Source of the DNA: Tipula vernalis
Taxonomy: Eukaryota > Arthropoda > Insecta > Diptera > Tipulidae
NCBI GenBank assembly: GCA_958295665.1
Contig: OY282560.1
Location: forward strand, 55,428,333-55,492,332
Reading direction: 5' to 3'
Length of the DNA: 64,000 bases
The position numbers were made by a program, and so were the translations under genes. A model generated the notes under the pieces. It did not search any database, was not told the DNA's origin, and saw only the letters and a program-made list of their open reading frames with translations. Within the stretch, counting starts at the first letter, position 1. Every line of letters begins with the position of its first letter. This document shows positions 1 to 50,459 of the stretch, one piece after another.

Positions 1-1986
1 CTCACTGGGAAAACACATTATCAGAAGCAGCTGTTTGTAGTTCAGCTACATCATTAAGATATTTATTTTCCGTCATAGTAGCGTTTTGTCAAGAAACTGA
101 TTCTGTTAATCTATGGAATAAATTTCAAGAAAATATGGCCAGTGATATTCTGATTCGGCGACGGCGAGAGTTAAACTCAGATGATGTACAATATGATCAA
201 AACATATTTGACGAAGCATTATTTGAATTGAACAAAGTAGTGCAATTACTTTCGGGTAAATCGATCAAGGATTTTGGGCTGCCGATGCCAGCTAATACTA
301 CTAACTCAGATTTAACTAACAGTGCCGAATACACAAGAGAAACATCATACGATCAAACGAGACTTTTACAAAATATAGCTCAAGATGAGCCACGATTAAA
401 CATCGATCAGAAAAAAGTATTCACTGCATTACTATCAATTGATAACAATGAAGGGAAATTGTTTTTCCTTGATGCCCCAAGAGGTACAGGAAAAACCTTT
501 TTAATCAATCTGCTTTTAAAAAAACTGAGATCTACCGGAAAAATTGCGTTAGCTGTTGCATCATCCGGCATTGCCGCTACGCTTTTGGAAGGAGGCCGAA
601 CCGCACACTCTACATTCAAGCTCCCGCTGAAAATCGCCACATATGAAAATAACAGCGTCTGTAGTGTTTCTAAACAGAGTAATACAGGAAAATTGATGCG
701 TGACTGCTCATTAATAGTCTGGGACGAAGCTACCATGTCAAACAAGACGTCTGTGGAAGCACTGGATAGGACAATGCGCGATTTGCGCAACAAAAATTCA
801 CCTATGGGTGGATGTACAATTCTGTTTTTAGGAGATTTTCGTCAAATCCTATCAGTTGTGACTCGAGGAACACGTGCTGACGAAATAAATGCTTCCCTAA
901 AAGATCCAACCTTTGGCCACATGTCAATAAATTAGAGCTTAAAACTAATATGAGGGTTTCGTCATCTCCACGTGAGAACAGCCTATTTCCAGAGATGCTG
1001 CTAAAAGTTGGCAATGGAGAGTTAACACAAAGTGAGGGAAGGATTAACCTAGAAAACCTTTGTGTTTTGATAGACAACATCCAAGAGTTAGTCAACAATG
1101 TCTATCCTGACATTGATAACATAAGTTATAAGACAATATCTTGGTTTAAAGAAAGAGCGATTCTGTCACCAACTAACGAACAAGTAGATAAGGTAAATAA
1201 CTTGATTCTTTCAAAGATTGATGCGCCGACGAAAATATACTACTCGGTCGATACTGTTCTCGATTTGGAAGAAGCTGTTCATTTTCCTACAGAATTTCTA
1301 AACTCTTTGAACCCGTTTGGACTCTCTCCTCACAAAATGGTGTTTAAAGTAGGTTGTCCTGTTATTTTATTAAGAAACCTGAATCCACCTAAACTTTGCA
1401 ATGGCACGCGTTTGCTGGATGTCACAGGATGTGGTACCGGAGAAGATGTATTGATTCCCCGAATCCCTCTGATACCATCGGATTTACCCTTCCAATTTAA
1501 ACGTTTACAGTTTCCGGTAAAGACATCTTTTGCAATGACCATTAATAAATCGCAGGGTCAAACCTTCAACGTTGCAGGCTTAGATTTGAGCGTTGACTGT
1601 TTTTCACATGGCCAACTGTAAGTCGCTCTTTCAAGAGTAACCTCTAGAGAAAACATGTTTGTATTGTCTAATGACAAGAAAGCTGTGAACGTTGTATATA
1701 AAGACATTCTGTAATATATTAATTGTTGTTGTAAAAATAAAATAAATAGGTAAAAATGTAAAAAGTAAAAAAGTAAAAATGTAGTGTATGAATTTAGATA
1801 TTCCAAAGATAGAAGGAAATCTTCATGGTATAGGGAAAGGGGAATTGTTTTACTCCAAATTTAACGAGTGCGGGCCACGGGCAGTAATGAATCAATCAAA
1901 ACTACTGGATCGATTTTAATCATTTTTTCAGTGAGTGACAGAGGCTATATATTTTATACCCGTGCGAAGCCGGAGCGGGCCGCTAG
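1..1986 (+). mobile_element. Helitron (canonical, non-Helentron), 5'-truncated by window edge
   Basis: The right-hand part of a rolling-circle Helitron. The helicase half of RepHel is open from the window edge, followed by about 245 bp of AT-rich non-coding DNA and then a typical Helitron 3' terminus at 1959-1986: a GC-rich stem (CCCG at 1959-1962 pairing with CGGG at 1976-1979) shortly before CTAG at 1983-1986, with T as the next base. Helitrons insert between A and T and end in CTRR after a short hairpin, so 1986 is the likely last base. The Rep half lies outside the window. The coding part is a pseudogene, so this copy cannot move by itself. Confidence 0.85.
3..1714 (+). pseudogene. Helitron RepHel, Pif1-type helicase domain (partial, broken)
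   Basis: Pif1-family superfamily 1B helicase domain of a Helitron replicase; it would unwind DNA during rolling-circle transposition. The frame is open from base 3, so the ATG at 135 is internal and not the true start. Counting from that Met: Walker A-like APRGTGKT near residues 114-121 (the usual first Gly of the loop is Arg), Walker B VWDEAT near 195-200, motif III FLGDFRQIL near 231-239. A one-base shift near 905-915 moves the reading to the frame of 950-1621, which holds the late Pif1 motif TINKSQGQTF. The TAA at 1619-1621 replaces the expected Tyr just before VALSRVTSRENMF; this frame then runs on to a final TAA at 1712-1714. So there is one frameshift and one nonsense change. Confidence 0.9.
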
Positions 1987-11576: not shown

Positions 11577-11584
11577 CAGCTAAT

Positions 11585-11636
11585 ATGAGTGTGAAGTTTA
11601 TGCTTAAAAAAAATAACAAAGAATTACACTGTTAAA
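11585..11636 (+). repeat. Left terminal inverted repeat
   Basis: 52 bp, inverted partner of 18220-18270. Carries one extra T after ATGCT and a G where the partner has A. Preceded by CAGCTAAT. Confidence 0.75.
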
Positions 11637-11734
11637 TTAGATATTTTCTAATTGGAATTTAAATTATATGAAAATTTAAATTTTTTGTAATTTTCGATTT
11701 TTCGTACCACCAAACAGGTTATTTTCATGGTTTT

Positions 11735-14700
11735 CAGATAGCTGGACCATCTGTTTATCTAGTTAAGCAAAGGCATCCAATTGTGTTGAACATTACTATA
11801 ATTCAGATAATTTAAAAGTTGTCTGATTTTTAATGGTTTAAATAATTATTTAGCGTCGATCCTGGAAATGTTCTGAAGGTCCCGCACATTTCTTAGAATG
11901 GCTAAGTCATATAGCGGTCAATGTCACAAAGCCGATCCAATTATAATGAACTATAATATATTTCACTTGTTTTGCTTATATTTTCAGATAATTTGGTCAT
12001 GTGCCAGTCTACGTGGTCAACCTTATCCAATTCTGATGAACTATACTATACTCCACAGAATTTAGAATTTTTAATAATTTGGTTGGTTATAAAAATTGTT
12101 GTATCTCCGATCACAGAGATGTCCACAAGGTCTGGCCTATATTTTTGGATAACTTGACCATATGCCAGTCTACGTGGTCAATCTTATTTAATTGTGATGA
12201 ACTATACTATACTTCACAGAATTTAAAATTTTTAATAATTTTGTTGGTTTTAAAAATTGTTGTATCTCCGATCACAGAGAGTCCACAAGGTCTTGCCTAT
12301 ATTTATGGATAACTTGACCATATGCCAGTCTACGTGGTCAATCTTATCCAATTGTGATGAACTATACTATACTTCACAGAATTTCGAATTTTTAATAATT
12401 TTGTTGGTTTTAAAAAATGTTGTATCTCCGATCACAGAGATGTCCACAAGGTCTTGCCTATATTTTTAGATAACTTGACCATATGCCAGTCTATGTGGTC
12501 AATCTTATCCAATTGTGATGAACTATACTATACTTCACAGAATTTAAAATTTTTAATAATTTTGTTGGTTTTAAAAATTGTTGTATCTCCGATCACAGAG
12601 AGTCCACAAGGTCTTGCCTATATTTATGGATAACTTGACCATATGCCAGTCTACGTGGTCAATCTTATTTAATTGTGATGAACTATACTATACTTCACAG
12701 AATTTAAAATTTTTAATAATTTTGTTGGTTTTAAAAATTGTTGTATCTCCGATCACAGAGAGTCCACAAGGTCTTGCCTATATTTATGGATAACTTGACC
12801 ATATGCCAGTCTACGTGGTCAATCTTATCCAATTGTGATGAACTATACTATACTTCACAGAATTTAGAATTTTTAATAATTTTGTTGGTTTTAAAAATGT
12901 TGTATCTCCGATCACAGAGATGTCCACAAGGTCTTGCCTATATTTTTGGATAACTTGACCATATGCCAGTCTAAGTGGTCAATCTTATCCAATTGTGATA
13001 AACTATACTATACTTCACAGAATTTAAAATTTTTAATAATTTTGTTGGTTATGAAAATTGTTGTATCTCCGATCACAGAGATGTCCACAAGGTCTTGCCT
13101 ATATTTTTAGATAAATTGACCATATGCCAGTCTATGTGGTCAATCTTATCCAATTGTAATGAACTATACTATACTCCACAGAATTTAAAATTTTTAATAA
13201 TTTTGTTGGTTTTAAAAATTGTTGTATCTCCGATCACAGAGATGTCCACAAGGTCTTGCCTATATTTTTGGATAACTTGACCATATGCCAGTCTACGTGG
13301 TTAATCTAATCCAATTGTGATGAACTATACTATACTTCACAGAATTTAAAATTTTTAATAATTTTGTTGGTTTTAAAAATTGTTGTATCTCCGATCACAG
13401 AGATGTCCACAAGGTCTTGCCTATATTTTTGGATAACTTGACCATATGCCAGTCTACGTGGTTAATCTACATTAATTGTAATGAACTATACTATACTTCA
13501 CAGAATTTAGAATTTTTAATAATTTTATTGGTTTTAAAAATTGTTGTATCTCCGATCACAGAGATGTCCACAAGGCCCTGCCTATATTTTTGGATAACTT
13601 GACCATATGCCAGTCTACGTGGTCAATTTCATCCAATTGTAATGAACTATGCTATACTTCACAGAATTTAGAATTTTTAATAATTTTGTTGGTTTTAAAA
13701 ATTGTTGTATCTCCGATCACAGAGATGTCCACAAGGTCTTGCCTATATTTTTAGATAACTTGACCATATGCCAGTCTATGTGGTCAACCTTATCCAATTG
13801 TAATGAACTATACTATACTATAATTTGGTCATGTACCAGTCTACGTGGTCAACATTATCCAATTCTGATGAACTATACTATACTTCACAGAATTTAGAAT
13901 TTTTAATAATTTTGTTGGTTTTAAAAATTGTTATATCTCCGATCACAGAGATGTCCACAAGGTATTGCCTATATTTTTGGATAACTTGACCATATGCCAG
14001 TCTACGTGGTTAATCTACACCAATTGTAATGAACTATACTATACTTCACAGAATTTAGAATTTTTAATAATTTTATTTGTTTTATAAATTGTTGTATCTC
14101 CGATCACAGAGATGTCCACAAGGTCTTGCCTATATTTTTGGATAACTTGACCATATGCCAGTCTACGTGGTTAATCTAATCCAATTGTGATGAACTATAC
14201 TATACTTCACAGAATTTAAAATTTTTTAATAATTTTGTTGGTTTTAAAAATTGTTGTATCTCCGATCACAGAGATGTCCACAAGGTCTTGCCTATATTTT
14301 TGGATAACTTGACCATATGCCAGTCTAAGTGGTCAATCTTATCCAATTGTGATAAACTATACTATACTTCACAGAATTTAAAATTTTTAATAATTTTGTT
14401 GGTTATGAAAATTGTTGTATCTCCGATCACAGAGATGTCCACAAGGTCTTGCCTATATTTTTAGATAAATTGACCATATGCCAGTCTATGTGGTCAATCT
14501 TATCCAATTGTAATGAACTATACTATACTCCACAGAATTTAAAATTTTTAATAATTTTGTTGGTTTTAAAAATTGTTGTATCTCCGATCACAGAGATGTC
14601 CACAAGGCCCTGCCTATATTTTTGGATAACTTGACCATATGCCAGTCTACGTGGTCAATTTCATCCAATTGTAATGAACTATGCTATACTTCACAGAATT

Positions 14701-17110
14701 TAGAATTTTTAATAATTTTGTTGGTTTTAAAAATTGTTGTATCTCCGATCACAGAGATGTCCACAAGGTCTTGCCTATATTTTTGGATAACTTGACCATA
14801 TGCCAGTCTACGTGGTTAATCTACACCAATTGTAATGAACTATACTATACTTCACAGAATTTAGAATTTTTAATAATTTTGTTGGTTATGAAAATTGTTG
14901 TATCTCCGATCACAGAGATGTCCACAAGGCCCTGCCTATATTTTTGGATAACTTGACCATATGCCAGTCTATGTGGTCAATCTTATCCAATTGTAATAAA
15001 CTATACTATACTCCACAGAATTTAAAATTTTTAATAATTTTGTTGGTTTTAAAAATTGTTGTATCTCCGATCACAGAGATGTCCACAAGGTCTTGCCTAT
15101 ATTTTTGGATAACTTAACCATATGCCAGTCTACGTGGTCAATCTTATCCAATTGTGATGAACTATACTATACTTCACAGAATTTAGAATTTTTAATAATT
15201 TTATTGGTTTTAAAAATTGTTGTATCTCCGATCACAGAGATGTCCACAAGGTCTTGCCTATATTTTTGGATAACTTGACCATATGCCAGTCTACGTGGTC
15301 AATCTTATCCAATTGTGATAAACTATACTATACTTCACAGAATTTAAAATTTTTAATAATTTTGTTGGTTTTAAAAATTGTTGTATCTCCGATCACAGAG
15401 ATGTCCACAAGGTCTTGCCTATATTTTTGGATAACTTAACCATATGCCAGTCTACGTGGTCAATCTTATCCAATTGTGATGAACTATACTATACTTCACA
15501 GAATTTAGAATTTTTAATAATTTTATTGGTTTTAAAAATTGTTGTATCTCCGATCACAGAGATGTCCACAAGGTCTTGCCTATATTTTTGGATAACTTGA
15601 CCATATGCCAGTCTACGTGGTCAATCTTATCCAATTGTGATAAACTATACTATACTTCACAGAATTTAAAATTTTTAATAATTTTGTTGGTTTTAAAAAT
15701 TATTGTATCTCCGATCACAGAGATGTAAACAAGGTCTTGCCTATATTTTTGGATAACTTGACCATATGCCAATCTACGTGGTCAATCTTATTTAATTGTG
15801 ATGAACTATACTATACTTCACAGAATTTAAAATTTTTAATAATTTTGTTGGTTATGAAAATTGTTGTATCTCCGATCACAGAGATGTCCACAAGGTCTTG
15901 CCTATATTTTTGGATAACTTGACCATATGCCAGTCTATGTGCTCAACCATATCCAATTGTGATGAACTATACTATACTTCACAGAATTTAAAATTTTTAA
16001 TAATTTTGTTGGTTTTAAAAATTGTTGTATCTCCGATCACAGAGAGTCCACAAGGTCTTTCCTATATTTATGGATAACTTGACCATATGCCAGTCTACGT
16101 GGTCAATCTTATCCAATTGTAATGAACTATACTATACTTCACAGAATTTAGAATTTTTAATAATTTTATTTGTTTTATAAATTGTTGTATCTCCGATCAC
16201 AGAGATGTCCACAAGGTCTTGCCTATATTTTTGGATAATTTGACCATATGCCAGTCTACGTGGTCAATCTTATCCAATTGTGATGAATTATACTATACTT
16301 CACAGAATTTAGAATTTTTAATAATTTTGTTGGTTTTATAAATTGTTGTATCTCCGATCAAAGAGATGTCCACAAGGTCTTGCCTATATTTTTGGATAAC
16401 TTGACCATATGCCAGTCTATGTGGTCAATCTTATCCAATTGTGATGAACTATACTATACTTCACAGAATTTAAAATTTTTAATAATTTTGATGGTTTTAA
16501 AAATTGTTGTATCTCCGATCACAGAGATGTCCACAATGTCTTGCCTATATTTTTAGATAACTGGGCCATAGGCCAGTCTACGAGGCCAACCTAATCCAAT
16601 TGTGATGAACTATACTATACTTCACAGAACATAGAATTTTTAATAATTTTGTTGGTTTTATAAATTATTGTATCTCCGATCACAGAGATGTCCACAATGT
16701 CTTGCCTATATTTTTGGATAACTTGACCATATGCCTGTCTACGTGGTCAATCATATCCAATTGTGATTAACTATACTATACTTCACAGAATTTAGAATTT
16801 TTAATAATTTTGTTGGTTTTAAAAATTGTTGTATCTCTGATCACAGGGATGTCCACAAGGTCTTGCCTATATTTTTGGATAACTTGACCATATGTCAGTC
16901 TATGTGCTCAATCTTATCCAATTGTGATGAACTATACTATACTTCACAGAATTTAAAATTTTTAATAATTTTGTTGGTTTTAAAAATTATTGTATCTCCG
17001 ATCACAGGGATGTCCACAAGGTCTTGCCTATATTTTTAGATAACTTGATCATATGCCAGTCTACGTGGTCAATCATATCCAATTGTGATGAAATATACCT
17101 ATGGTCCAGT
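11735..17110 (+). repeat. 161-bp satellite array, about 31 units plus two degenerate edge units
   Basis: Tandem array whose unit is 161 bp (160 in units lacking one T in GAGATGTCC). Landmarks per unit: GACCATATGCCAGTCTACGT, AACTATACTATACTTCACAG, GTTGTATCTCCGATCACAGA, CACAAGGTCTTGCCTATATT. I count about 31 occurrences of the CCGATCACAGA segment from 12107 to 17000. Two badly diverged units occupy about 11735-11985, spaced 160 bp, while central units are nearly identical. Each unit has an open frame of about 61 codons in one phase (begins MPIFLDNLTICQ), but 161 is not divisible by three and a TAA closes every unit, so this is a side effect of repetition and not a gene. Confidence 0.95.
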
Positions 17111-17138
17111 TCCAATTGTGATGAACTATACCTATTGA

Positions 17139-18215
17139 TAACTATGCCTATGGTCACCTTCGCATCGGTTGTATGGTGGCCTGAAACTGAGCAAAAGGCA
17201 ACGCAAACCTTATTTAAAAAAGTTCAACGTGTAGCCTGCATCGGTGTTGCGAGCTCAATGAAATCATATCCAACCGGGGCGATGGGGACACTTCTAATAC
17301 TGACACCGGTACTTCTGCATATTTAAAAGGATGCTGCAATTATGGCCCTGAATATGCAGGCGGAATGAAATATCGAACCAGGCAATATGGTGGGACATCT
17401 GAAAATCCTTAAGGAATTTCAGACAGACCCTACCATAGGAATGCATTCCGACTCTATGCCAGCTAAACTGGACTTCCACAAACCATTCTGTGTTAGGTTA
17501 CCTGACCGGAATATGTGGAGTGCAGGTGGACCATCCTTTGAGCGAGGGTCCATAGTATGGTTTACAGATGAATCAAAAACGGAAGATGGGGCGGGAATAG
17601 GAATACACGGGAGTGGCACTACCATCTCGAAGTTCTTGGGTACCAATGCTACCGTTTTTCAAGCAGAAGTACATGATATGCAGTAGAAGGTTATTAAACA
17701 TCTGGCAGGATCAAATAAGGTAACACTTATGTGGGTGCCAGGTCATACTGGAATCAAAGGAAACGAGGCAGCTGATGGCCTCACCCGTGAGTGTTCTGCC
17801 TCTCCATTTATTAGACCAGAACCCTTCTGCGGCGTCACTAAGGGACACGTTAGAGCAGCGGTAAAACGCTGGGAGGTTGTTCAAAAGTCCTCCTACTGGC
17901 GGAGAATTTCAGGTTTATGACAGGCGAAGAAATTTATATCACCTTTGTCTGTCATAGTTAAGGAGTGTCTTGAATTTAGGACGCTTGAGTTGAGGCTGCT
18001 TACTGGCTTCCTCAAGGTTTCACCTTAAGAAGATGGGCCTAAGACCGACAGATGGATGCCGCTTCTGCGATCTGGAAGCGGAATCAGCGGAACATGTTCT
18101 GTGCCATTGATCAGCCATTTCCAGCAAAGACTGCAAAATCTAGGAGGGAGAACAAGATTCATTGAGAGCCTGAATATTGACAGGTCGGATAATTCAGTAG
18201 GGTCCAGCACAATAG
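17139..18215 (+). pseudogene. LINE 3' fragment: RT end, RNase H and C-terminal zinc motif
   Basis: Non-LTR retrotransposon remnant. ASVVWWPETEQKATQTLF followed by KVQRVACIGV (17160-17250) is the region after the RT catalytic core. RNase H follows with its catalytic acids: FTDESKTEDGAG (Asp), ATVFQAEVHDM (Glu), and WVPGHTGIKGNEAADGL (Asp and conserved His) at 17560-17790. The Cys/His end motif CRFCDLEAESAEHVLCH lies near 18060-18110. Several stops and frameshifts, for example after LLHI at 17326, break it. Presence of RNase H points to the I/LOA/R1 group; I cannot fix the clade. It is 5'-truncated at the edge of the satellite. Confidence 0.85.
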
Positions 18216-18219
18216 AACT

Positions 18220-18270
18220 TTTAACAGTGTAATTTTTTGTTATTTTTTTTAGCATAAACTTCACACTCAT
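18220..18270 (-). repeat. Right terminal inverted repeat
   Basis: 51 bp, inverted partner of 11585-11636, followed by CAGCTAAT at 18271-18278. Confidence 0.75.
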
Positions 18271-18278
18271 CAGCTAAT

Positions 18279-19154: not shown

Positions 19155-20225
19155 GCTGGTCGATATGGCATATTTCATTAAGGAATATGACAAAACGCCA
19201 TGTTTCAAAATGACATATTTCAAAACGGCATATGTTACACTATGGCATATTTCAAAATGACATATCGCTGGTGACGATGCATAACAGTGTATCTACGTTT
19301 TAGATATTTTTCAGGAAGCGAGGTACACTACGGCATATGGTACACTACGTCATTTTTCAAAACGGCATATTTCAAAACGGCGTGTGGTACACTATGGCAT
19401 ATTTCAATGACAGTGTATTTTAAAACTTGGCCATTTGTTAACCGATTAAGATGAAATTCAACAGTAGGAGAACAAATTTAATTTCGTTAAAGGGCAATTT
19501 TAGAAAGAACTTTATTAAATGATGGTTAAATCCATTTTAGAATCCCATTTCCATCGCACTTGTCAAATTTCATCGTAATCGGTTAAAAAATAGCTAAGTT
19601 CCATCAAAATTAGCCATATCCCAGAAATTCATAAAAAAAAACATTTTAAAATCACATTTTTATAGCGCACTTGTCGAATTTTATTATCATCAGTTAATAA
19701 ATAGTCGAGTTCCTTCATTATTGGCTTTACACAAAACTTCATCTAAAATCCATTTTAGAATCTAATTTCCATTACTCCTGCCGAATTTCATCATAATCGG
19801 CTAATAAATAGTCGAGTTCCATCATTATTGGGCAGGTTCCATAATTTCATGAAAAACCCATTTTAGAATCCTTTTTCCATCATACTTGTCAAATTTTATC
19901 ATAATCGGTTAATACTTAAGAAATAGCCAAGTTCAATCCTAATTGGCCATCTCCCAGAACTTCATCTAAAATCCTTTTTAGAATTCAATTTCCATCGTAT
20001 ATGTTGAATTTCATCATAATCAACTAAGAAATAATCAAGTTTTAGAAAATCCCTTATTGTACCATATGCCATATTGAAATATGCCACAGTGTACCTTATG
20101 CCGTAGTGTACCCTATGACGTTTTGAAATATGTCATAGTGAAATATGCCGTTGTGTACCATATGCCTTAGGGTACCATATGTCGTTTTGAAATATTCCGT
20201 TTTGAAATATGTCATAGTGTACCTG
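19155..20225. mobile_element. Foldback-like element with repeat-rich inverted arms
   Basis: The left arm (about 19155-19420) consists of repeats of GGTACACTACGGCATAT and ATTTCAAAACGGCATAT type. The right arm (about 20055-20225) carries the reverse complements (ATATGCCATATTGAAATATG, ACCATATGTCGTTTTGAAAT). Between them (19430-20050) are about five diverged tandem units of roughly 110 bp with the core TTTCATCATAATCGGTTAA and CATTTTAGAAT. Repeat-built inverted arms with a unique-type middle resemble foldback elements or subterminal-repeat MITEs. No transposase. The 110-bp unit recurs in family X copies (25015-25270, 48125-48230) in the other orientation. Confidence 0.65.
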
Positions 20226-24184: not shown

Positions 24185-25275
24185 TCGCTCTAAAAAGACC
24201 AAAGTATTGAAATCCTGTCAAAAATGATCAAAAATTTGGTTGGTCCAAAACCACTTTTCTCGACGTTTTGAAAGTCTCTGAGTCTAAAACAGCAAAAAAA
24301 AAAAAATGTCCGTCCGTCTGTCTGGATGTCTGGATGTCTGAATGTCTCGAGGTCTGTATGTCTGTACCCATGGTACCTCGAGAACGGCTTGTTCGATTTA
24401 AAATTTTTGTTGCCAATCTGTTTCTATGGTCAAGGCCGAGATTTCAAAAGCTTTTGGAACCTGTGCGTCAAGGTACCTGCCATACGAATTGACCCAAAAT
24501 ACCTGGTTATCGAAATATTTAAAAAATTTTAATATATGCTGGTTTGAATATTGAGTTTGGGGTTGAGTTGAAGGTTAAGTTAGGGGTCAATTTGCGGATT
24601 GAGTTGATGTTGAGTTAGATTCGAGTTAGGGCTGGATATAAAAATATTTACGCATTTTTTTTATATGCTGGTTTAATTATTGAATTGCGGGCATTGAATT
24701 TTGGGCTGATTTTAAGGTTAAGTTAGGGATCAATTTACGGGTTGAGTTAAAGTTGAGTTGGGGCTGGATAGGACATAGTGAGTTGTTGACCATTTTTTTA
24801 TATATGTTGGTTTGAGGAGTGAGTTTAGCGTAAAGTTTGCGGTTTAGTTGAGGGTTAAGATGGGTTCCGTTTGCGAGTTGAATTAGGGTTTAGAGAGCAG
24901 TTGAGCAATCTATATATATATATATAGGGAAACCTCACTACAACAGAAATCGACGGGACCAAAAACGTTGTCCGCTAAACTGAGGATTTGTGATTTTATT
25001 TTTATAAAAATTTTATTGAGATTCTATATCTTGTCCGATTTTGACGAAATCCAGTATTTCCAATGCAAATGGGATATTTAAATGATCTTTAGATGAAGTT
25101 CTGGAAAATGATCAATTAGGACGGAACTTACCTATTCCTCAACAGATTATGATGAAATCTGACATGTGCATCGCAAATAGGATTCTACAATGATTCTTGG
25201 ATAAAGTTATAGAATATGGCCAATGATGACGAAACTTGGTTATTTCTTAACCGATTATGATGAAATTTGATGTGG
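24185..25275 (+). mobile_element. Dispersed composite repeat, family X copy 1
   Basis: Starts with GACCAAAGTATTGAAATC and GGTTGGTCCAAAACCA (24195-24260), then a C/T and G-rich tract of GTCCGTCCGTCTGTCTGGAT type (24308-24365), then GTACCTCGAGAACGGCTTGT (24373-24392). From 24540 to 24900 there are degenerate units of GTTGAGTTGAGGTTAAGTTA type, a short TA run near 24912, and about 2-3 diverged units of the roughly 110-bp repeat (25015-25270). The same modules occur near 30.4-28.2 kb (reverse) and 47.9-52.4 kb. No protein coding. Family name is my label. Confidence 0.65.
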
Positions 25276-28242: not shown

Positions 28243-30390
28243 AATACACGGGGCTGAAACCTCACGAGGTGATCAGAACTTCGGTCTGAGTTACGTCAAT
28301 CTAAACTCAATCTCCAACTGAGATACACCATCACCATCACCATCACCATCACCATCACCATCACCATCACCATCACCATCACCATCACCATCACCATCAC
28401 CATCACCATCACCATCACCATCACCATCACCATCACCATCACCATCACCATCACCATCACCATCACCATCACCATCACCATCACCATCACCATCACCATC
28501 ACCATCACCATCACCATCACCATCACCATCACCATCACCATCACCATCACCATCACCATCACCATCACCATCACCATCACCATCACCATCACCATCACCA
28601 TCACCATCACCATCACCATCACCATCACCATCACCATCACCATCACCATCACCATCACCATCACCATCACCATCACCATCACCATCACCATCACCATCAC
28701 CATCACCATCACCATCACCATCACCATCACCATCACCATCACCATCACCATCACCATCACCATCACCATCACCATCACCATCACCATCACCATCACCATC
28801 ACCATCACCATCACCATCACCATCACCATCACCATCACCATCACCATCACCATCACCATCACCATCACCATCACCATCACCATCACCATCACCATCACCA
28901 TCACCATCACCATCACCATCACCATCACCATCACCATCACCATCACCATCACCATCACCATCACCATCACCATCACCATCACCATCACCATCACCATCAC
29001 CATCACCATCACCATCACCATCACCATCACCATCACCATCACCATCACCATCACCATCACCATCACCATCACCATCACCATCACCATCACCATCACCATC
29101 ACCATCACCATCACCATCACCATCACCATCACCATCACCATCACCATCACCATCACCATCACCATCACCATCACCATCACCATCACCATCACCATCACCA
29201 TCACCATCACCATCACCATCACCATCACCATCACCATCACCATCACCATCACCATCACCATCACCATCACCATCACCATCACCATCACCATCACCATCAC
29301 CATCACCATCACCATCACCATCACCATCACCATCACCATCACCATCACCATCACCATCACCATCACCATCACCATCACCATCACCATCACCATCACCATC
29401 ACCATCACCATCACCATCACCATCACCATCACCATCACCATCACCATCACCATCACCATCACCATCACCATCACCATCACCATCACCATCACCATCACCA
29501 TCACCATCACCATCACCATCACCATCACCATCACCATCACCATCACCATCACCATCACCATCACCATCACCATCACCATCACCATCACCATCACCATCAC
29601 CATCACCATCACCATCACCATCACCATCACCATCACCATCACCATCACCATCACCATCACCATCACCGTCACCATCACCATCACCATCACCATCACCATC
29701 ACCATCACCATCACCATACGTAAACGGAACTTAATCTCAATCCCAACCCCCAACTTAACCGTTGAATAAATCCCAACTCAATCCCATCGCTCAACACTAA
29801 CTCAACCCTCTACTCGACATCAACTCAACCCTCAATGCCATCCCAACCCAACCCTAATCAACCCGAACCCGATCCCAGACTCGACGCCCCTACTCTATCC
29901 CCAAATTAGTTTGGTTCAAAAAAATACATGCAAACCCCTCACTAAACCTCAACTCAACCCTAACTCAATTCTGAATTCAACCCTCATCTTTAATCAAAAT
30001 TCAATGCCTAAACTAACACGGTCTGAAAATTGCATGAGTTTATGAGTTCAACTCAATCCGTATTCAACCTCTAACTTGAACTACACTACTGTGAGATCGA
30101 AATGCTCACTAAACCCTAACCCAACTCCAAGTCAACTTCAACTCAACCCCAACTCAATCCTCAAACCATCGTTTAAAGAAAATTGGTACACGTGATAATA
30201 TCACCACATGGTTTTGGATCATTCGTATGGCAGGTACCCAGTATTTCACGTACAATGGCGAACAAAATTCTAAATTATACAAGCCCTTCCTGTGATATCA
30301 TGGGTGTAGACGGTCGGCAATTTTGTTTTTGCTTTTTTCCATTTAAGGACTTTTAACTTGAAAAAAGTGGTTTTGGACCAATAAAATTAT
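28243..30390 (-). mobile_element. Family X copy 2, reverse orientation, with hugely expanded hexamer
   Basis: Reading right to left: TGGTTTTGGACCAA module reversed (about 30390-30360), degenerate CTCAACCC units (30170-29720; reverse of the GTTGAG units of copy 1), the CACCAT tract, then an end module at 28243-28310 beginning GGGCTGAAACCTCACGAGGT. That end module reappears reversed at about 52385-52425 in copy 3, which fixes one terminus of the family. Confidence 0.65.
28326..29717. repeat. Hexanucleotide microsatellite (CACCAT)232
   Basis: 1,392 bp, exactly 232 hexamers, with a single visible departure: CACCGT at 29664-29669 (G at 29668), 48 bp from the right end. On the minus strand it reads as an endless Met-Val dipeptide frame (29753-28296), which is purely a result of the repeat. 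It lies inside family X, whose other full copy carries a short, impure ATGGT/GATGGT version at the same place. Confidence 0.97.
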
Positions 30391-34420: not shown

Positions 34421-34510
34421 TTTTAAACTTTTAAACTTTTAAACTTTTAAACTTTTAAACTTTGAAACTTTTAAACTTTTAAACTTTTAAACTTTTAAAC
34501 TTTTAAAATT
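34421..34510. repeat. (AAACTTTT)n microsatellite, about 11 units
   Basis: Octamer AAACTTTT repeated from 34421 to about 34510 with one visible substitution (TTTG for TTTT around 34473). Confidence 0.9.
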
Positions 34511-35860
34511 TTGGAATTAGATTTTCATTGACAGTCCAGCAAAGTGAAACATTAGGTTTCAAGGAAAATGGAGTTTTGAGAGTAATCGGATTAGTTAACC
34601 TACACGATTGAAAATTTGTTTTGCTGTTAATTATTCGATTTTGTAATTCTTTTGAATTTCATCTGTAAATCCTACTTCAAATTCCTCATCATGACGAACA
34701 TGTTAGACAATTTCTCCGCGTGTGATAACCATAATGGATCATAATAATTCATCAGATCTCATGTATCGAAAAAATACTAAATATAGATTTAAAATTAACA
34801 ACAAAATACGTGTAATAGATACGTGCAATTAAATCTAAATGACTACCACAAATCATCTCTGTTTTCTTCATTTCTCAACTTTAATTTGATTAAATTCTTT
34901 AAAATTTATCATACTTCAATTTTATCTATGCACATATATACATACATATGTTGTGTACACTAATCACATATCATCGTATGTACACACCATCTATCCATCT
35001 ATCCATTGATATAGTAAAGGTAACGACATGATTGAGAGAAAAAAAAATGATAACCAGAAAAAAAAAATTCAATCTTCCACTGTACCTGTACATATATACT
35101 CCAAACCTTTAAAGATGAATAAATAAAACAAAACAAAACAAAAAAATTTCCAATCTTCGAGGTATGTAAATCTGGATTTTTTCTACATTTTCGTCTTTAT
35201 TTATTTGAAGAATTAAATTGTTAATTTATATCAATATTCATCTTACGTGTTCTACATCTTTACGTATACACCCAAAATAGAAAACATCATGGAGAAATCA
35301 AAATCCCAGCGTTTGTCACAATAAATCGATTTTGTTCCGAGCCAAAATTGAAAAGTTTAATTGATTGGATACAGAAACAATTGAAATAGGATAAAACCAA
35401 AACTTTCCACTTTGTTTAATATCCTTTTTGACGGATTCCTTTCACATTTTGGTTCGTTTACGAATTTAAGTTGTATTTCGGCATTAGAAAAGTTTTGTAT
35501 GATGGAATTTTTTTTTGGGGGGGGGGAATTAAGCGGAATAGTTCATAGGGAACCGGTCTATGTTATATTCCTTTTGAATAAATATGAAGCAGTTATTAAA
35601 ATATTTTTTAAAATGGTTTACATAAAATAAAAATACTGATTAGGGAATATCTTGAGACCTTTAATTTTGGCGTAGCTTTGTGACACAAATTTCTGTATAA
35701 AGAAAAGCTCCATTGTGTCAGCCTTCTGTTAAGCTTTTTTACTAGACTTAATTTTACTTTTTTTATCAGACTTAATGTTAAGAGATTAAATTTAACGGAA
35801 AATAATTAACATTCATGTTTAGCGGAAACGCCCAATTTCAACTAGGCTGAATGGTTTTGG
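34511..35860. other. AT-rich stretch without recognised gene
   Basis: Only short unmatched frames. A run of nine G occurs at 35519-35527. Confidence 0.4.
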
Positions 35861-38269: not shown

Positions 38270-38855
38270 ATGTTTACATCATATCTCGCTGAGGAAACAT
38301 CATTGGTCTTGATAAACCTGATTGTATTATCGAATAATACTGTCCTTCATTTATTATTCCATTTTTACTCCAAAACTGCTCGATACTATCATACGACTCA
38401 TTTTCTAAATTTTGTTTTAATTGATTAAATCTTCTCTTTAAATCTTTACTACGCCCATCATTAGTAGTTAAAGGCAGCAGTACTTCAGTGCGAACCATAG
38501 GAAAGAATGGAGCGTGAAATCTACAAATTGTAGTATTTTTTTTATAACAAGTAAAAGTATGTCGATGTGTCTGAGAATCTATAAACTTAGGTGATAAATG
38601 ATTTTTATCAACGGACACCAAACGATCAATCAATTTAATACTTTCCGACATATCTGCACCAACTTTTTCATCGGGAGCATTATTCAACCACAATAGAATA
38701 TGAGCGTGTGCACTACCACGATGTTGAAATTCAATTCGTTTAAAGTAATCAACGACATAGTTATCACCAAAAGGACCATTTTTCTTTAGCTGAAGCATCA
38801 GCACATCAACTAATTTGTTAAAATATAAATTACACGTAACCGGATCATTCTTCAT
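38270..38855 (-). pseudogene. Helentron RepHel: Rep (HUH) fragment, Tyr motif deleted
   Basis: A 193-codon frame with FQHRGSAHAHILLWL; the metal-binding HUH is HAH near residues 50-52. ICRFHAPFFPM and the tail SGLSRPMMFPQRD follow the normal Helitron Rep order. Directly after, and a frame apart, the sequence reads NRLVDYDMIANTP, a part that should come much later, near the helicase. The segment that should hold the catalytic two-Tyr motif is therefore missing. Without this Tyr the element could not start rolling-circle transfer. Confidence 0.82.
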
Positions 38856-41756: not shown

Positions 41757-44700
41757 AATAAATAATGTCGGAAATCGCCATATCATATCGGAATTTGAAG
41801 TATTATGTCAAAGTCCGATATGTCACGTCAAAATTTGAATTTTTATTCCAGAAAGAGATATTTCATAACAGGATTTGATATGCTATGTTAGAATTTTAAT
41901 CTTTGGTGTCAAAATTCGAGATATCGATGTGAAAATTCCGTACTTCATATTAGCATTTGATACACAATATCAGAATTTGTATTTATGATGTCAGAGTTCG
42001 ATATATCACGCCAGAATTCGTCATGTCACATATTCGAAAATATTATGCCAGAATCCCAGTCATATCAGAATTTGATTTTTTTATGTCAGAACTCTTTAAC
42101 TTTAACTCTTTTTATCTTACGTAAGTTGCCACAATTGGAATATGGATTTGTGAAGCTACCTCGTTTCAGATTTCGACAAGTCATATCAGAATTTGAATTT
42201 CTGATGTCAGTCTGAATTTAATTTGTCATGTACGAATTTGAGTTTTTGATGTTAGAATTTGATGTATCATGCCAGAATTTGATATGTCCTGCCAGGAATC
42301 GGTACATCATGTCAGAATTTAAAGTATTTTGCCAGAATTCGATACATCGTGTCAATATACCATACCAAAATAAAATAACTTATGTTAGTTCGATATGACT
42401 TGTCAGAATTTGAATCTTTGATGTCAAAATTCGATACCTCCGAATCAGACTTCGAAACGTCATGTCAGAATCTGAACTTTTGATGCCAGAATTCGAGTTA
42501 TCATATCAGAATTCCATATTTTATGTCAGATTAGATATGCAATAACAGAATTTGTATTTATGATGTCAGAATTGAATATACCATGCCAGAAATCGACTTG
42601 TCACATATTCGAGATATTATGCCAGAAACCAATCAATTATGCCAGAATTTCTTACTTTATGTCAGAATTCGATACGTTATGCCAAAATTTACATTTTTGT
42701 TGTCGGAATATATGTATCATATGTGTCAATCATTGCAATTTCGAGACGTCAATAAAAAAATCAATATTCAAACTAACCAGTGATTAGTAATCACCGAAGT
42801 TTAAGATTACTAAAAAAAACACAATTATTCACAACAAATTTCAAATATAATGAACTTAGGATCCTACAGTAATCTTTAAATATTAAGAAACATTTAAGAT
42901 CTCGAATAATTTCGTAACTTTCAATTTTTTAACGTTTATTCCAAAATCTCAAAAACCTGGAATTTCGGAAATCTCATCTCTCTAAGATCATGTAACATTA
43001 TATGCCTAATTCAACTCCAAACTAAACCCATGCAACAATGAAAAGCTCCAATAATCTAAAATAAAACCTCAAACAATTTCTATTGCACGGTACCAAACAA
43101 ATCTGAATTATGATAAGCCTGAAATCTCCAAAATATACAACACTTTACAAATTTAGCGTATTATCTTGGCCATCCTAGGTATGATTATACAAATATAGGG
43201 CTCTGGTAATATTAAGAAACTCTAATAGACTCGAATAATCTCATAAATCATCTTAGAATTCTAGAATAATCTCGATGTACTTAGATTTATCCAAGCACTT
43301 GGGAAACCACATAAAAATATCGAAAATTTCGATGTACCTGTAATTCTGTAACACATGTCGCCCCTCAACGACAAAATTCGAGAAAATAAAAAATGAAAAT
43401 TTGTAATCCCTGGAATAATTTTTGATGCCAGAATTCGAGTTATCATATCAGAATTCCACACTTTATGTCCGAATTAGATATGCAATATCAGAATTTGTAT
43501 CATGTTTGTCACATATTCGAAATATTATGGCAGAATCCGGTAAATTATACTAGAATTTATTACATCATGTCAGACGACAAAATTCAATATATCAAGCAAG
43601 ATTTTGATAAATTGTCAGAATTGATATACATATCTGAACGTCTGAATTTGATTTGTCATCTCAGAATTTACATTTTTACTGTAGGAATAGTCAGGATTTG
43701 AATTTATGATGCCAGAGTACGATATATCGTGTCAGAATTCGAAATATCACGCCATAACTTGGTAAATAATATCAGAATTCGATATGTTATGTTATGATGT
43801 ATTATATAGTTCGGTATATCACGTCAGAATTTGATATACCAAGCCAGAATTCGATCTGTCGTGTCAACATTAGAGTTAATGCTGTCTAAATTCAATATGT
43901 CTGATGTTAGAATTTGATTGTTTGGTATAAGAATTTTATATTTTAGAATTCTGCTTACAACATTAAAATTCGATATGACATGTCAGAACATATTTTTAAG
44001 AAAAATGATGACAGAATTCGATACGTCAAGCCAGAATTTGAACTATTTATGTCTAAATTCAATACTACCAAAATTCGTCACGTTATTTGATATATCTGTC
44101 GTGAATCCTTCAGATATTTCTATATATGACGTAAAAATTCGATATGACAAGTCAAATTTTATATTTCATTTCGATATTTTAGCTTTTTCCGTATTTGATA
44201 TAGTCTTATCAGAATTTAATATATCATCATAATCTCAAAATTCGAGATGCCATATCAAAATTCAATACAATTTATTGAATTTTGGTACTGTATATGGAAT
44301 TCTGACAAAACATCTCGTATCTTGGGATGTTCTATCGAATTTTGAAGTCTTGAGATGATGATAAATCAAAAAATTCGATATCTCAATTCAGAATTCGATA
44401 AATCTCTTCAACGTTTGGCTTTATGGTGCCAGAATTCGATATATAATGCCAGGAATCGACATGTCACATATTCGAGATATTATGCCAGAATCCGATAAAT
44501 TATGCTTGAATTTATTACTTCATGTTATTGATTCGTCATCTCAGAATGTAAATTTTTGCTGTCGGTATACCATATGTGTATCATATGTGTCAATCATTGC
44601 AATTTCAATATGTCAAGTCAGAATTTGAGTTTATGATGTCAGAGTTCGATAAATCGTGTCAGAATTCGATATGTTATCATGTCAGAATTTGACATACCAA

Positions 44701-46420
44701 GCCAAACCTTAATAAATAATTTTAGGATTCGATTTGTATATTTAGTCATAATTTGATTTATCAAGCCAGAACTCGATTTGTTGTATCAAAATTAGAGTTA
44801 ATGCTTAATTCGATATTTCTGAAGTCAGAATTTGATTTTTTGGTGTTAAAATTTTACAGTATACTCACATATCAGAATTTTTTATCGTAGGTATGTCAAA
44901 ATTAGAAAAAATGATAACAGAATTTGATATGTCAACCCAGAATTTCATCTATTTATATCTAAATTCAATAAATCAGAATTCATTACGTTACTTGACATAT
45001 CTGAATTCTGTAAATTCGATATGTTGAATTTTTGTTTTACAATTCTATACATGATGTAAGAATTCGATAACTTTTCCGTATTCGATGTATTCGTTCAAAA
45101 TTCGACATTTCTTATCAGAATTCGTTAGGTCTTATCACAATTTGGCATATCATGTCAAAATTCTAGATGCCGTATCAGAATTGGATAATATCATTCCAGA
45201 ATTCAACCCAATTTATTAAATTTTGGTACGATATATCGTATTTTGAAGTCCTGAGATGATATACATATCAAAACAAAATCGATATTTCATGTCAGAATTC
45301 GATAAATCTCTTCAACGTTTGACTTTCTGATGTCAGCAGAGTTCGATAGTTCATGGTAGAGTTTGAGTAAATAGCAGAGTACAAAACATATCAAAATTCG
45401 ATAAGTCGTGGCAGAAATTAATTTTGTGACATCAGAATTCGTCAGTTATTGTTGTCAAAATTCGATACATCGTGTCTGAATTCGAAATAGCATGCCATAA
45501 ATTGGTAAATAATATCAGAATTCGGTATGTTATCATTTCAGAATTTGACATACCTTAATAAATAATTTTAGTATTCGATTTGTATATTTAGTCAGAATTC
45601 GATTTGTTATATCAAAATTAGAGTTCATGCTAAATTCGATATGTCTGAAGTCAGAATTTGATTTTTTGGTGTCAAAATTTTACAATATATATCAGAATTC
45701 TTTATCGTATGTCAAAATTAGAAAAAATGATGACAGAATTTGATATGCCAAGCCAGAACTTGATCTATTTATATCTAAATTACGATACGTTATTTGACAT
45801 ATCTGAATTCTGTAAATTCGATATGTTGAATTTTTGTTTTAGAATTCTATACATGATGTAAAAATTCGATATCACAAGTCAAATTTTATATGTCATTTCG
45901 ATATTTTAACTTTTTCCGTATTCGATGTATTCGTTCAAAATTCGACATTTCTTATCAGAATTCGAAAGGTCTTATCAGAATTTGACGTATCATCTCAAAA
46001 TTCAAGATGCCGTATCAGAATTGGTTAATATCATTCCAGAATTCAACCCAATTTATTAAATTTTGGTACGATATATCGAATTCTGACAAAACATCTCATA
46101 TTTTGGAATAATATGATATATCGTATTTTGAAGTCTTGAGATGATATATATATCAAAAAAAAATCGATATTTCATGTCAGAATTCGATAAATCTCTTCAA
46201 CGTTTGACTTTCTGATGTCAGCAGAGTTCGATAGTTCATGGTAGAGTTTGAGTAAATAGTCGTGGCAGAAATTAATTTTGTGACATCAGAATTTCAGTTA
46301 TTGTATGTATTCCAGAAATTGAATTTTTTTTATGTCAGAATTCTACAACAGGATAGGTCATTGTTCGATAAGTCATTAGATGAATCATATCCGAATTTGA
46401 ATAGAATTCGATAAGTCAAA
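41757..46420 (+). repeat. Degenerate GAATTC-rich minisatellite, about 4.7 kb
   Basis: Continuous variation on a roughly 20-25 bp theme, ATGTCAGAATTCGATAT, with interchangeable GTCAGAATTTGAA, GCCAGAATTCGAT and TCAAAATTCGATA. Many units keep an EcoRI site (GAATTC). Larger duplications are laid over this: about 44800-45400 recurs at about 45600-46250, and 42478-42553 recurs at about 43420-43495 (offset near 941 bp). Bases 42783-43410 do not follow the theme and form a non-repetitive island. Short frames inside are chance. No transposon ends were found. Confidence 0.85.
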
Positions 46421-47894: not shown

Positions 47895-48308
47895 GCAAGA
47901 TTTACTTCGGTGTAAAAAGACCAAAGTATTAAAATCAAGGCAAAAATGATCAAAAATTTGGTTGGTCCAAAACCATTTTTCTCGACGTTTTCAAAGACCC
48001 CGAGTCTAAAAAGTCAAACAAAAAAAAATAATATGTCCGTCCGTCTGTCTGAGTGTCCGGATGTCTGGATGCCTGTACCCATGGTATCTCGAGAACGACT
48101 TGTTCGATTTAGATTTTTTTCTTACAGGAAATAGGATTCTAAAATGATTTTTGGATGACTTTCTGGAATATGGCCAAGTGTTAGGGAACTTGCCTGCTTC
48201 TTAACCGATTTTGATAAAATTTGACGGTGTTGGTTTGTATATAAGAATTTTGTAATGGTGAAGGTAATGGTGATGGCGGTGTGGTGATGATGATGGTATG
48301 ATGGTACG
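47895..48308 (+). mobile_element. Family X copy 3, left part
   Basis: Same module order as copy 1: GACCAAAGTATTAAAATC, GGTTGGTCCAAAACCA (47895-47980), GTCCGTCCGTCTGTCTGAGT tract (48034-48070), GTACCCATGGTATCTCGAGA, one 110-bp unit (48125-48230), then GTGATG/ATGGT microsatellite to 48308. It stops at the T-run that is the tail of the inserted LINE and resumes at about 51975. Confidence 0.7.
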
Positions 48309-48516: not shown

Positions 48517-50459
48517 CTAATCACGATTTGTTGTTCGTTGTTCTGCTCTTGCACGCTCTATGCGTCTCAGCTCGTTCAGTACCACAGCCGAAGTGTGGCT
48601 TACAGCATTCCATGTTTCTTCAGAAACAAGCATTAATTCGGATATGTTTTCAGGTGTTGGGCGCTGCCCAAGGATATCCGACAGTTCACTCCGGGTTGTC
48701 TCAAACCACGAACATTGAAAAAAAAAACGTCTTCCACATCCTCTTGTGATCCTTTGCAGGCCGGACACTCTGGAGTGCCGGTATGCTTAAATCTGTAAAG
48801 GTATGCGCCAAAACAACCATGCTCACGTAACAACTGCGTCAGGTAGTAGTTAAGTTCGCCATGCCGCCTATTTATCCACTTTTCGATGGCTGGTAGGAGA
48901 CGGTAAGTCCACCGACCCTTTTCCGATCCATCCCACCGTCTTTGCCATTCTGTCAGAATTGTAATGCGTTCTGATGCTCTGCTCCCTGGTTGTTCACGAT
49001 GTAGGTACCATTTCTTCCTCTCCTTTGCAAGTAGATCAATTGGGATCATCCCCGCAATAACAAGTGTCGCGTCATCGTAACCACATATTACCCTTAAGGC
49101 ACCAAGGTGGTACACCGATACTAACTTTTGTCTATATGTCCCAAAGTCCATCGCATCACTCCAAACAGGTGATCCATAGAGGATGATGGAGGTTACAACT
49201 TTTACCAGCAGCATCCTACGACACTGTCTTGACCCGCCAGTGTTGGGCATAATGCGGGAGAGGGCTGCAGCTACTTTGGCAGCTTTTCTGCTCACTATCG
49301 TTAGGTGCTCCTTAAAGTTTAAGCGCGCATCAATTTTGGCACCCAGATATCGTAATGAAGGCTGCGAGGGTATTAAGATTCCGCCAACATCAATATTTAC
49401 CATCTATCTTTCCTTCCTACTGGTAATTAAGACTGCTTCAGTTTTATGGTCAGCTAGTTGGAGTCCGAACAATATCAACCACCTTTTGATAATTATAATG
49501 GTCAACCTGCATATCTCCATTATATCTTCTATAGTCTTTGCTACCACGACAACAGCAACATCGTCCGCGTAACCCACAATTTCTGCCTCATTAGGTACGC
49601 TGCGCTTCAGAACGCCATCGTACATAATGTTCCAAAGTAAGGGACCCAGTACTGATCCTTGAGGTACTCCACCCGTAACGTTGTATTCCATGACACCGTC
49701 ATCTGTATCATATATCAGCACTCTATTGCGGAAATAATCTGTAATGATCCTCCTTATGTAGACTGGTACTTGCAATACATGTAGAGCATTCAGAATATGG
49801 CTCCATTTTGCCGATTTGAATGCATTCTTGACGTCCAGGGTAACCACAGCGCAGTATTTAATAGAGCTGCCCTTCCATCTTCTGCCGTCTGTAGCTTCCA
49901 TGGCGATTTCAACAACGTGTCGAATGGCGTTGGTTGTCGATCGAGCCTTTCGAAAACTATACTGCCATTCGGCGAGATCTCCGGCCCTTTCCAAATCTTT
50001 CTCCAATCAATTGTAGATTATGCGCTCGAGTACTTTGCCAGCCGTATTCAGCATGCACAGTGGTCGGTAGGAGGATGGCTCTCCTGGAGGGTTCTTTCCC
50101 TTTGGCAACAATACTAGACGCTGTCTCTTCCAGTGTTCCGGGAATACCCCCTCCCTCAGACATGAGTTGTAGACTTCTCAGAACTCATCAGGTCTAGCTT
50201 GCATGGCAGCCTTTAATACAATATTTGGAATATTGTCAGGTCCAGGAGCTTTTTGATTCCCAAATCGTTGGCACGCACTGGCGAGCTCTTCTCTGGATAC
50301 CGAGGGAACTTTCTCTGGGCCAGGTACTACACCGATGGCAGGGACCACATCAGTTTGCTGTGGGAATAAAGCGGTAACAATTCTGTTTAGTGTCACTGGG
50401 AGGGCGATGCAGTGGAATTTCCGAGCCTGTTCATGACGATTTTGTAGGGTCTTCCCCAT
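48517..50459 (-). pseudogene. R1-clade LINE ORF2: reverse transcriptase and C-terminal region
   Basis: Frame 50459-50178 has the RT start FGNQKAPGPDNIPNIVLKAA. A TGA/frame break follows, with GKEPSR and the RPLCMLN-type block split over frames 50163-49957. Frame 50006-49404 holds the palm: VTLDVKNAF near residues 55-63, GGVPQGSVLGP near 112-122 and YADD near 146-149, both Asp kept. The frame then continues, after a stop at the 49403 junction, as 49403-48633 with SLRYLGAKID, VTSIILYGSPVWSDAM and IPIDLLAKERKKWY, typical of R1-clade, and the Cys motif CPACKGSQEDVEDV. A last shift leads to 48768-48517 with LGQRPTPENISELML and ARAEQR. Near-complete downstream half, several small lesions. Confidence 0.88.

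Follow-up and report, generated by a model that had tools for sequence, protein, structure and literature searches.

Tetris/TIR-220 of Drosophila virilis is described as a non-autonomous foldback element with target-site duplications of 8-10 bp (PMC4079207). According to that description, its terminal inverted repeats (TIRs) comprise an outer domain and a variable number of long tandem repeats, which are proposed to have originated in the outer domain, and the middle of the element is without apparent coding capacity (PMC4079207). In Aedes aegypti, Muta1 has been termed a type-2 foldback element; it is accompanied by non-autonomous derivatives with varied internal sequence (PMC5225508). Long, foldback-like TIRs with tandem repeats are further described for Galileo of Drosophila (PMC3688188, PMC3573991), and very long inverted arms for insertions at inversion 2Rj of Anopheles gambiae (PMC1952172).

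The repeat considered here lies in a stretch of 64,000 nucleotides from Tipula vernalis (the window). With a probability of roughly 93%, it is one copy of a dispersed family of foldback DNA transposons that has no gene of its own. As far as published descriptions allow a match, the closest known system is Tetris, which shares the non-autonomous foldback structure and the variable, long tandem repeats in the arms (PMC4079207). The dimensions differ. The Tetris unit is about 220 bp long, as compared to 161 bp here; its TIRs reach 1,735 bp, whereas the arms here reach about 37 units, i.e., about 6 kb; three structurally complete copies are reported, while 22 were read here besides the window copy, next to 1,135 exact ends; and, unlike in Tetris, the centre is frequently absent in the Tipula family (PMC4079207). 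Muta1 and its derivatives resemble the family in their 8- or 9-bp duplications, their repeat-bearing TIRs and the hundreds of non-autonomous derivatives, yet Muta1 has 12-bp subterminal repeats, 145-bp TIRs and an active transposase, and a satellite-length unit is not among the features described for it (PMC5225508). In Galileo, the tandem repeats of the TIRs measure ~210 bp in one subfamily, and its likeness extends to the independent expansion of the two TIRs and to transposase sites in the repeats; the differences are its 7-bp duplications, the presence of a P-superfamily gene and the number of repeats, about two to four per described copy (PMC3688188, PMC3573991). The 2Rj insertions share the long arms, but according to their authors they are not a multicopy element and lack ordinary target duplications (PMC1952172).

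The layout of the window copy is compiled in Table 1. A first-pass annotation of the window had seen inverted repeats of 51-52 bp that enclose a satellite, with CAGCTAAT as a direct repeat at both outer ends, and had proposed a non-autonomous DNA transposon with a grown internal tandem repeat. The inverted repeats proved to be identical in 50 of 52 aligned columns, with one mismatch and one 1-bp gap, and the direct repeat is perfect over its 8 bp. Allowing up to three mismatches, the terminal 18-mer occurs at just two places in the window, which are the two TIR ends; shuffled windows contained 0.12 places on average, and at least two were seen in 3 of 100 shuffles. The proposal of a transposon was also borne out, as the same ends, duplications and array recur at other loci. 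The simple one-directional form was not: the family is a mirror-image foldback, a form that is not visible in the window copy on its own, where the right arm is reduced to 51 bp. Not everything between the TIRs is satellite. The tandem part spans about 11655-17100, with degenerate units starting just inside the left TIR and a mean identity of 0.947 among the 29 full units, and the stretch from ~17140 to 18219 is a broken LINE piece. Other copies share the subterminal stretch, with identities of about 76-94%, which makes it a fixed part of the element. A search of the window against Rfam gave no match.

Table 1. Features of the inserted element (11585-18270) and its flanks, in window coordinates
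Feature	Position	Strand	Remarks
Left target-site duplication, 8 bp	11577..11584	+	CAGCTAAT, directly abutting left end
Left TIR, 52 bp	11585..11636	+	Begins ATGAGTGTGAAG; same end in other copies
Subterminal arm	11637..11966	+	Degenerate satellite-like units from about 11655, about 64-70% identical to the units
161-bp tandem array, left arm	11972..17098	+	29 full units (profile search)
Irregular 226-bp repeat within array	13710..13935	+	One unit plus partial extra unit
Ragged junction of array and LINE piece	17099..17140	+	Short duplicated pieces
Broken LINE piece replacing right arm	17141..18219	+	Left limit approximate
LINE/TIR junction	18214..18223	+	TTTA common to both sides; single genome match
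Right TIR, 51 bp	18220..18270	-	Sole remnant of right arm
Right target-site duplication, 8 bp	18271..18278	+	CAGCTAAT, directly abutting right end

In the 1.27-Gb genome, the exact terminal 19-mer occurs 1,135 times (554 on the plus and 581 on the minus strand); the reversed 19-mer, which served as control, was found 0 times on either strand. The 116-bp left end yielded 193 candidates, of which the best 40 were scored, at 94-100% identity. Twenty stretches were fetched from this search. Both ends are present in 17 of them and one end in three. In 16 of the 17, both arms hold satellite, in opposite orientation; in the remaining one (L010), the left arm is interrupted by an inserted retroelement. 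Being the best matches to a query that contains part of the arm, these 20 stretches are biased toward arm-bearing, similar copies. Free of this arm-query bias is a second sample of 23 pairs of opposite ends, which were picked by the position of the 19-mer alone among the first 100 matches listed. Five pairs, chosen for a length of ~2.7-3.7 kb, were read whole, and all five are satellite foldbacks; 18 were sampled at the middle, where satellite is present in 16 and absent from two (L041 and L051). That the TIRs occur elsewhere without the satellite, as the first-pass annotation had considered, is accordingly not the general case.

Altogether, 22 complete copies were read besides that of the window, and 21 of them have satellite arms at both ends. 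A typical copy consists of a TIR, the subterminal stretch, a stack of 161-bp units and a short or absent centre, followed by the mirror image. Unit number varies widely, from about 2 to 37 per arm in complete copies. Centres measure about 0-53 bp in 16 copies; in L030, L032 and L033 they extend to 0.8-0.96 kb and are without long open frames. Long inverted arms of tandem repeats, duplications at many sites and a mostly non-coding centre, which together define a foldback element, are thus all found. Copies are spread over the three largest contigs. Viral contigs searched with the TIR and satellite patterns, and bacterial and archaeal genome contigs searched with the TIR, gave no match.

The target-site duplications had been expected to measure 8 bp at other copies as well, which is part of the truth. 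Among the 23 complete copies, now including that of the window, 11 have exact 8-bp and 7 have exact 9-bp duplications. The remaining five are near-perfect: four match in 7 of 8 positions (one of these in a T run), and one is 8 bp long with a 1-bp offset. One of the 18 exact duplications is a run of A. The 9-bp cases fail to align as 8 bp; their ninth duplicated base is genuine. An exact match at 7 bp is confined to L028 (T run) and L010 (A run) among the 23. None of 506 mismatched pairs of left and right flanks reached 7 of 8 or 8 of 9. This result, like the two-armed layout elsewhere, argues against a free-standing satellite array that merely lies between independent, chance TIRs with a chance 8-bp match, a reading which can practically be dismissed.

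What happened to the right arm of the window copy? The LINE piece contains RNase H, is disrupted by stops and frame changes, and lacks the LINE 3' end. PF00075 was detected in one open piece of the region (E 2.1e-6) and zf-RVT, at an E of 0.0058 below the cut-off, in another, while three further open pieces gave no domain match. The piece abuts the right TIR at a 4-bp microhomology. This junction has a single match in the genome, so that the one-armed form goes back to one derived event. The copy in the window is a private derivative that retains just 51 bp of its right arm. The concern that the TIR could be part of the LINE 3' UTR was unfounded, because two relatives of the LINE piece, L024 and L015, run on downstream into other sequence with a (TAA)n or AAT-rich tail. 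A transposon with short ends of about 52 bp and a one-directional satellite, captured or grown without any foldback stage, would fit the window copy as found, but it is very improbable in view of the arms at both ends of nearly all other complete copies (21/22) and of the uniqueness of the LINE-TIR junction. Either a 5'-truncated LINE inserted in the ordinary way and a deletion then removed the arm, or the arm may have been lost in a repair that copied in a LINE piece. The former can be proposed tentatively, the piece having its 3' side facing the TIR and missing its 5' part, yet the LINE 3' end and the (TAA)n tail of L024/L015 are missing, the TIR stands in their place at a 4-bp microhomology, and the far side of the LINE piece is without remaining satellite.

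How the arms became long can be approached from their units. In a comparison of 271 full units from 18 copies, mean identity was 0.913 within the same arm and 0.892 between opposite arms of the same copy, the latter barely closer than the 0.875 between different copies. For 118 of the 271 units, the closest counterpart is in a different copy, about as often as in the same arm (115). Because units of one copy resemble each other more than they resemble those of other copies, the arrays probably grow in place. Unit numbers vary between arms and between copies; their correlation between left and right arm (r 0.40, permutation p 0.066) is not used as evidence. Within the unit, a well-conserved segment of 11 bases agrees with a motif of the TIR in 10 of 11 positions and may be considered a candidate transposase site. 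That each 161-bp unit holds the putative transposase-binding site of the TIR (TGTGAAGT[T/A]TA), and that longer stacks would recruit more transposase, is a more daring idea and, for the time being, a doubtful one.

Which transposase could be involved? Among the copies fetched and examined, none with a transposase of its own was found. The mixture of true 8-bp and true 9-bp duplications would favour the Mutator superfamily, and we see about an even chance that a Mutator-like (MULE) transposase moves the family, as with Tetris and the Muta families of Ae. aegypti. Duplications of 8-9(-10) bp, a Mutator feature, are found here; Merlin elements, however, make 8-9-bp duplications too, which is a point against the placement. 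Duplications of 8-9 bp are described for all 14 MULE families of Ae. aegypti (PMC5225508), and Tetris was assigned to Mutator on such grounds (PMC4079207). A P-superfamily transposase acting on THAP-binding sites repeated in the arms, as in the foldback element Galileo, is unlikely. It could account for the unit motif that is similar to the TIR, and THAP sites are reported for the tandem repeats of Galileo (PMC3688188). Moreover, P-type coding pieces adjoin arm sequence in two fetched copies, L010 (THAP, PF05485, E 2.8e-7) and L011 (PF21787, E 0.0048, below the cut-off). P elements make 8-bp duplications, and the 11 of 23 exact 8-bp cases would, taken alone, suit them, but the 9-bp duplications (7/23 exact) fit neither the 7 bp of Galileo nor the 8 bp of P.

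Neither coding piece qualifies as a partner. The THAP frame of L010 continues into a protease and reverse-transcriptase region and is part of a distinct retroelement of high copy number. Five further copies of this retroelement (L053-L057, 3.6 kb each) show no foldback TIR, and the homology of L010 to three of them sets in abruptly within the left arm, at L010 823-827, which marks an insertion. In L011, a broken P-type frame lies beside a satellite arm. Upstream of the five relatives examined (L059-L063), neither TIR nor arm was found; L062 merely has a match of ~25 bp there, which is at the level of chance. Another, common start near CACAAACGT is seen in four of the five; L011 is therefore a rearranged neighbour. 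Also, no left TIR is present in the 17.3 kb leftward of the L011 end. Searches of solved structures with the P-type pieces returned nothing significant, the best hit being a THAP chain with an E of 0.08. The hAT superfamily, with its strict 8-bp duplications and CA...TG-type ends, does not agree with mixed 8/9-bp duplications and ends of the form ATGAG...CTCAT.

As none of the copies fetched and examined is autonomous, it is from the structure of the element that a transposase acting in trans is deduced. This enzyme, supplied from another place in the genome, would bind the element ends, and possibly each unit via the TIR-like motif, excise the element and reinsert it with a stagger of 8-9 bp. 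Between moves, unequal exchange or slippage would make the arms longer or shorter. In the window copy, all but 51 bp of the right arm has been lost and the LINE piece stands there, joined by the 4-bp microhomology, in an event private to this locus.

Satellite DNA is mostly encountered in large blocks of heterochromatin whose origin is unclear. The present foldback family, with its many copies, displays different stages of an array together, with arms of about 2 to 37 units. Its more than one thousand exact ends allow the growth of repeat number inside a mobile element to be tested directly, and the family also permits testing of the units as transposase sites. Long near-palindromes across the genome may favour inversions and also assembly errors. 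If the units indeed hold the binding site, the satellite would be moulded by selection for transposition, and a mobile element would build, homogenise and spread satellite arrays along the chromosomes as palindromes.

The satellite in the window is carried by a foldback DNA transposon that is abundant in Tipula vernalis, and the copy in the window is a derived form of this family, private to its locus, that has lost its right arm. Its terminal inverted repeats (TIRs) measure 52 and 51 bp and agree in 50 of 52 aligned columns; CAGCTAAT abuts the outer side of both.

The genome comprises 1.27 Gb, and its three very large contigs measure 464, 412 and 371 Mb. With the left 116 bp as query, it yielded 193 candidates; the 40 best, those scored, have 94-100% identity. 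The terminal 19-mer is found exactly at 1,135 places, its reversed control at none. Twenty stretches were fetched around matches to the left 116 bp. Both ends are present in 17 of them, one end in three (L011, L019, L024). The satellite lies head to head in both arms of 16 of the 17, each arm holding about 2 to 37 units. Only L010 departs from this layout, a retroelement interrupting its left arm. Because this query contained part of the arm, a second set was drawn by the 19-mer alone: 23 opposite pairs from the first 100 listed places, chosen blind to the interior. Five pairs, selected by a length of ~2.7-3.7 kb, were read whole, and all five are satellite foldbacks. The other 18 were sampled by 501 bp at the middle. 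The satellite is there in 16; these samples contained none in L041 and L051. The ends of L051, ~16.7 kb apart, may not belong to one element.

How the arms meet varies among the copies of the first set, which were grouped by eye (table). In L030, L032 and L033 a middle of 0.8-0.96 kb has its own repeats and is devoid of long open frames. Relatives of the foldback element may lie elsewhere in the window.

Features of the window copy, centres of related copies (L numbers, other stretches of the same genome) and further features of the window
Feature	Position	Remarks
Whole element	11585-18270	6,686 bp
Degenerate satellite-like units, ~2	from ~11655	interior to left TIR; ~64-70% to units
Regular 161-bp array	ends 17098	
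Irregular unit, single in array	13710-13935	226 bp
Ragged junction		between 161-bp array and LINE piece
Broken LINE piece	from ragged junction up to right TIR	
Common spacer	L009, L014, L015, L025, L027	~37-53 bp
Other short spacers	L020, L021, L022, L026	
Direct junction	L012, L013, L016, L017, L018, L023, L028	0 or 1 base between arms
~110-bp repeats	19528-20041, 25036-25270, 48127-48225	~68-82% alike to middle-domain repeats of L030/L033
Helitron-like N-terminal domain and PIF1-type helicase pieces	38274-38855 (-), 881-1618 (+)	
CACCAT hexamer array	28326-29717	232 nearly perfect repeats, 99% match
TTTTAAAC octamer array	34421-34512	reads as inverted repeats too
Imperfect nested repeats	41800-46300	period 20 bp; several larger duplications
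R1-type LINE frame	49404-50006	named relatives nearly all insect, among 120 listed

Target duplications were compared in 23 complete copies, the window included. They are exact over 8 bp in 11 and over 9 bp in 7; four match at 7/8 (L022, L029, L032 and L028, the last within a T run), and that of L030 fits with a 1-bp offset. In L010 the exact 8-bp duplication consists of A throughout, which gives it little weight. Pairing the left flank of one copy with the right flank of another gave 0/506 at 7/8 and 0/506 at 8/9.

In other copies the arm extends past base 52; on the right side of the window copy LINE sequence follows immediately. Relatives of this LINE in L024 and L015 run beyond the window's join point to their own 3' end and a TAA-rich tail. 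This 3' end is absent from the window copy, and TTTA is common to both sides of the LINE/TIR join. A pattern of the join, with at most one mismatch, matched the genome once, in the window; the element therefore did not carry the LINE piece to other loci. The piece may stem from a LINE that inserted here and was trimmed later, or it may have been filled in when a break was repaired. Five open stretches of the piece were compared with Pfam: one matches RNase H (E 2.1e-6), a second has a zinc region below threshold (E 0.0058), and the remaining three gave no match. The first open stretch we take to be reverse transcriptase.

To see how the arrays grow, 271 full units, drawn from 18 copies, were aligned. 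Units of the same arm have a mean identity of 0.913, those in opposite arms of a copy 0.892, and those of different copies 0.875; window units reach 0.947 among themselves versus 0.895 to others. For 118 of the 271 units the best match is in another copy, for 115 in their own arm. As best matches are often in other copies, not all similarity is local. In the window array, units 6+7 are identical to 14+15, 8 to 13 (gaps ignored), 10 to 16 and 19 to 21, at distances of 2, 5, 6 and 8 units. These identities are a trace of local duplication; in-place unequal exchange or slippage would be superimposed on the shared ancestry of the units. The subterminal stretch is ~64% alike to the unit across some 350 bp, and this resemblance suggests that the unit derived from the outer arm. 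The same origin was proposed for the repeats of Tetris of Drosophila virilis (PMC4079207).

TGTGAAGT[T/A]TA is common to the unit and the outermost 20 bp of the element, at 10/11 positions and in opposite orientation; among 300 dinucleotide shuffles, 11 did equally well. The motif was spotted by eye before conservation was calculated. In conservation its stretch ranks first among the unit's 150 11-bp windows (0.977 vs 0.920 overall), with a median rank of 7 (5-95% range 1-21) when one unit per copy is drawn, and the adjoining block is likewise conserved. It is a suggestive candidate for a transposase-binding site.

A copy with its own transposase was not found among those examined, and two leads to a transposase-bearing partner failed. 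L010:1670-5622 and L053-L057 represent a retroelement of high copy number, for which a first look gave 1,032 candidates and 150 were scored. Many copies are 97-99% alike, and many have a 604-aa open frame. A THAP domain and a sub-threshold P-transposase-like HTH (E 7.8e-4) stand at the start of the frame, which continues into a protease/reverse-transcriptase region; a DNA-binding part of a DNA transposon occupies the expected gag position. L011:7847-8647 and L059-L063 belong to an old family of P-superfamily-like transposons that may start near CACAAACGT; the better relatives are ~70-90% alike, many with stops.

By analogy, the foldback family has about an even chance of belonging to the Mutator superfamily. 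It mixes true 8-bp and true 9-bp duplications, as do the MULEs of Aedes aegypti in the Muta1 paper (PMC5225508), and Tetris was assigned to Mutator on similar grounds (PMC4079207). Text searches of the open-access literature listed no paper recognisable from its listing as an account of the family. Tetris is a known foldback with satellite-like repeats in its arms (PMC4079207); Galileo of Drosophila has arm repeats on a smaller scale (PMC3688188, PMC3573991). Compared with Tetris, the unit of the present family differs, its arms are much longer, and its copy number is far above the three described as structurally complete for Tetris (PMC4079207). The family is a further member of the satellite-armed foldbacks like Tetris and Galileo.
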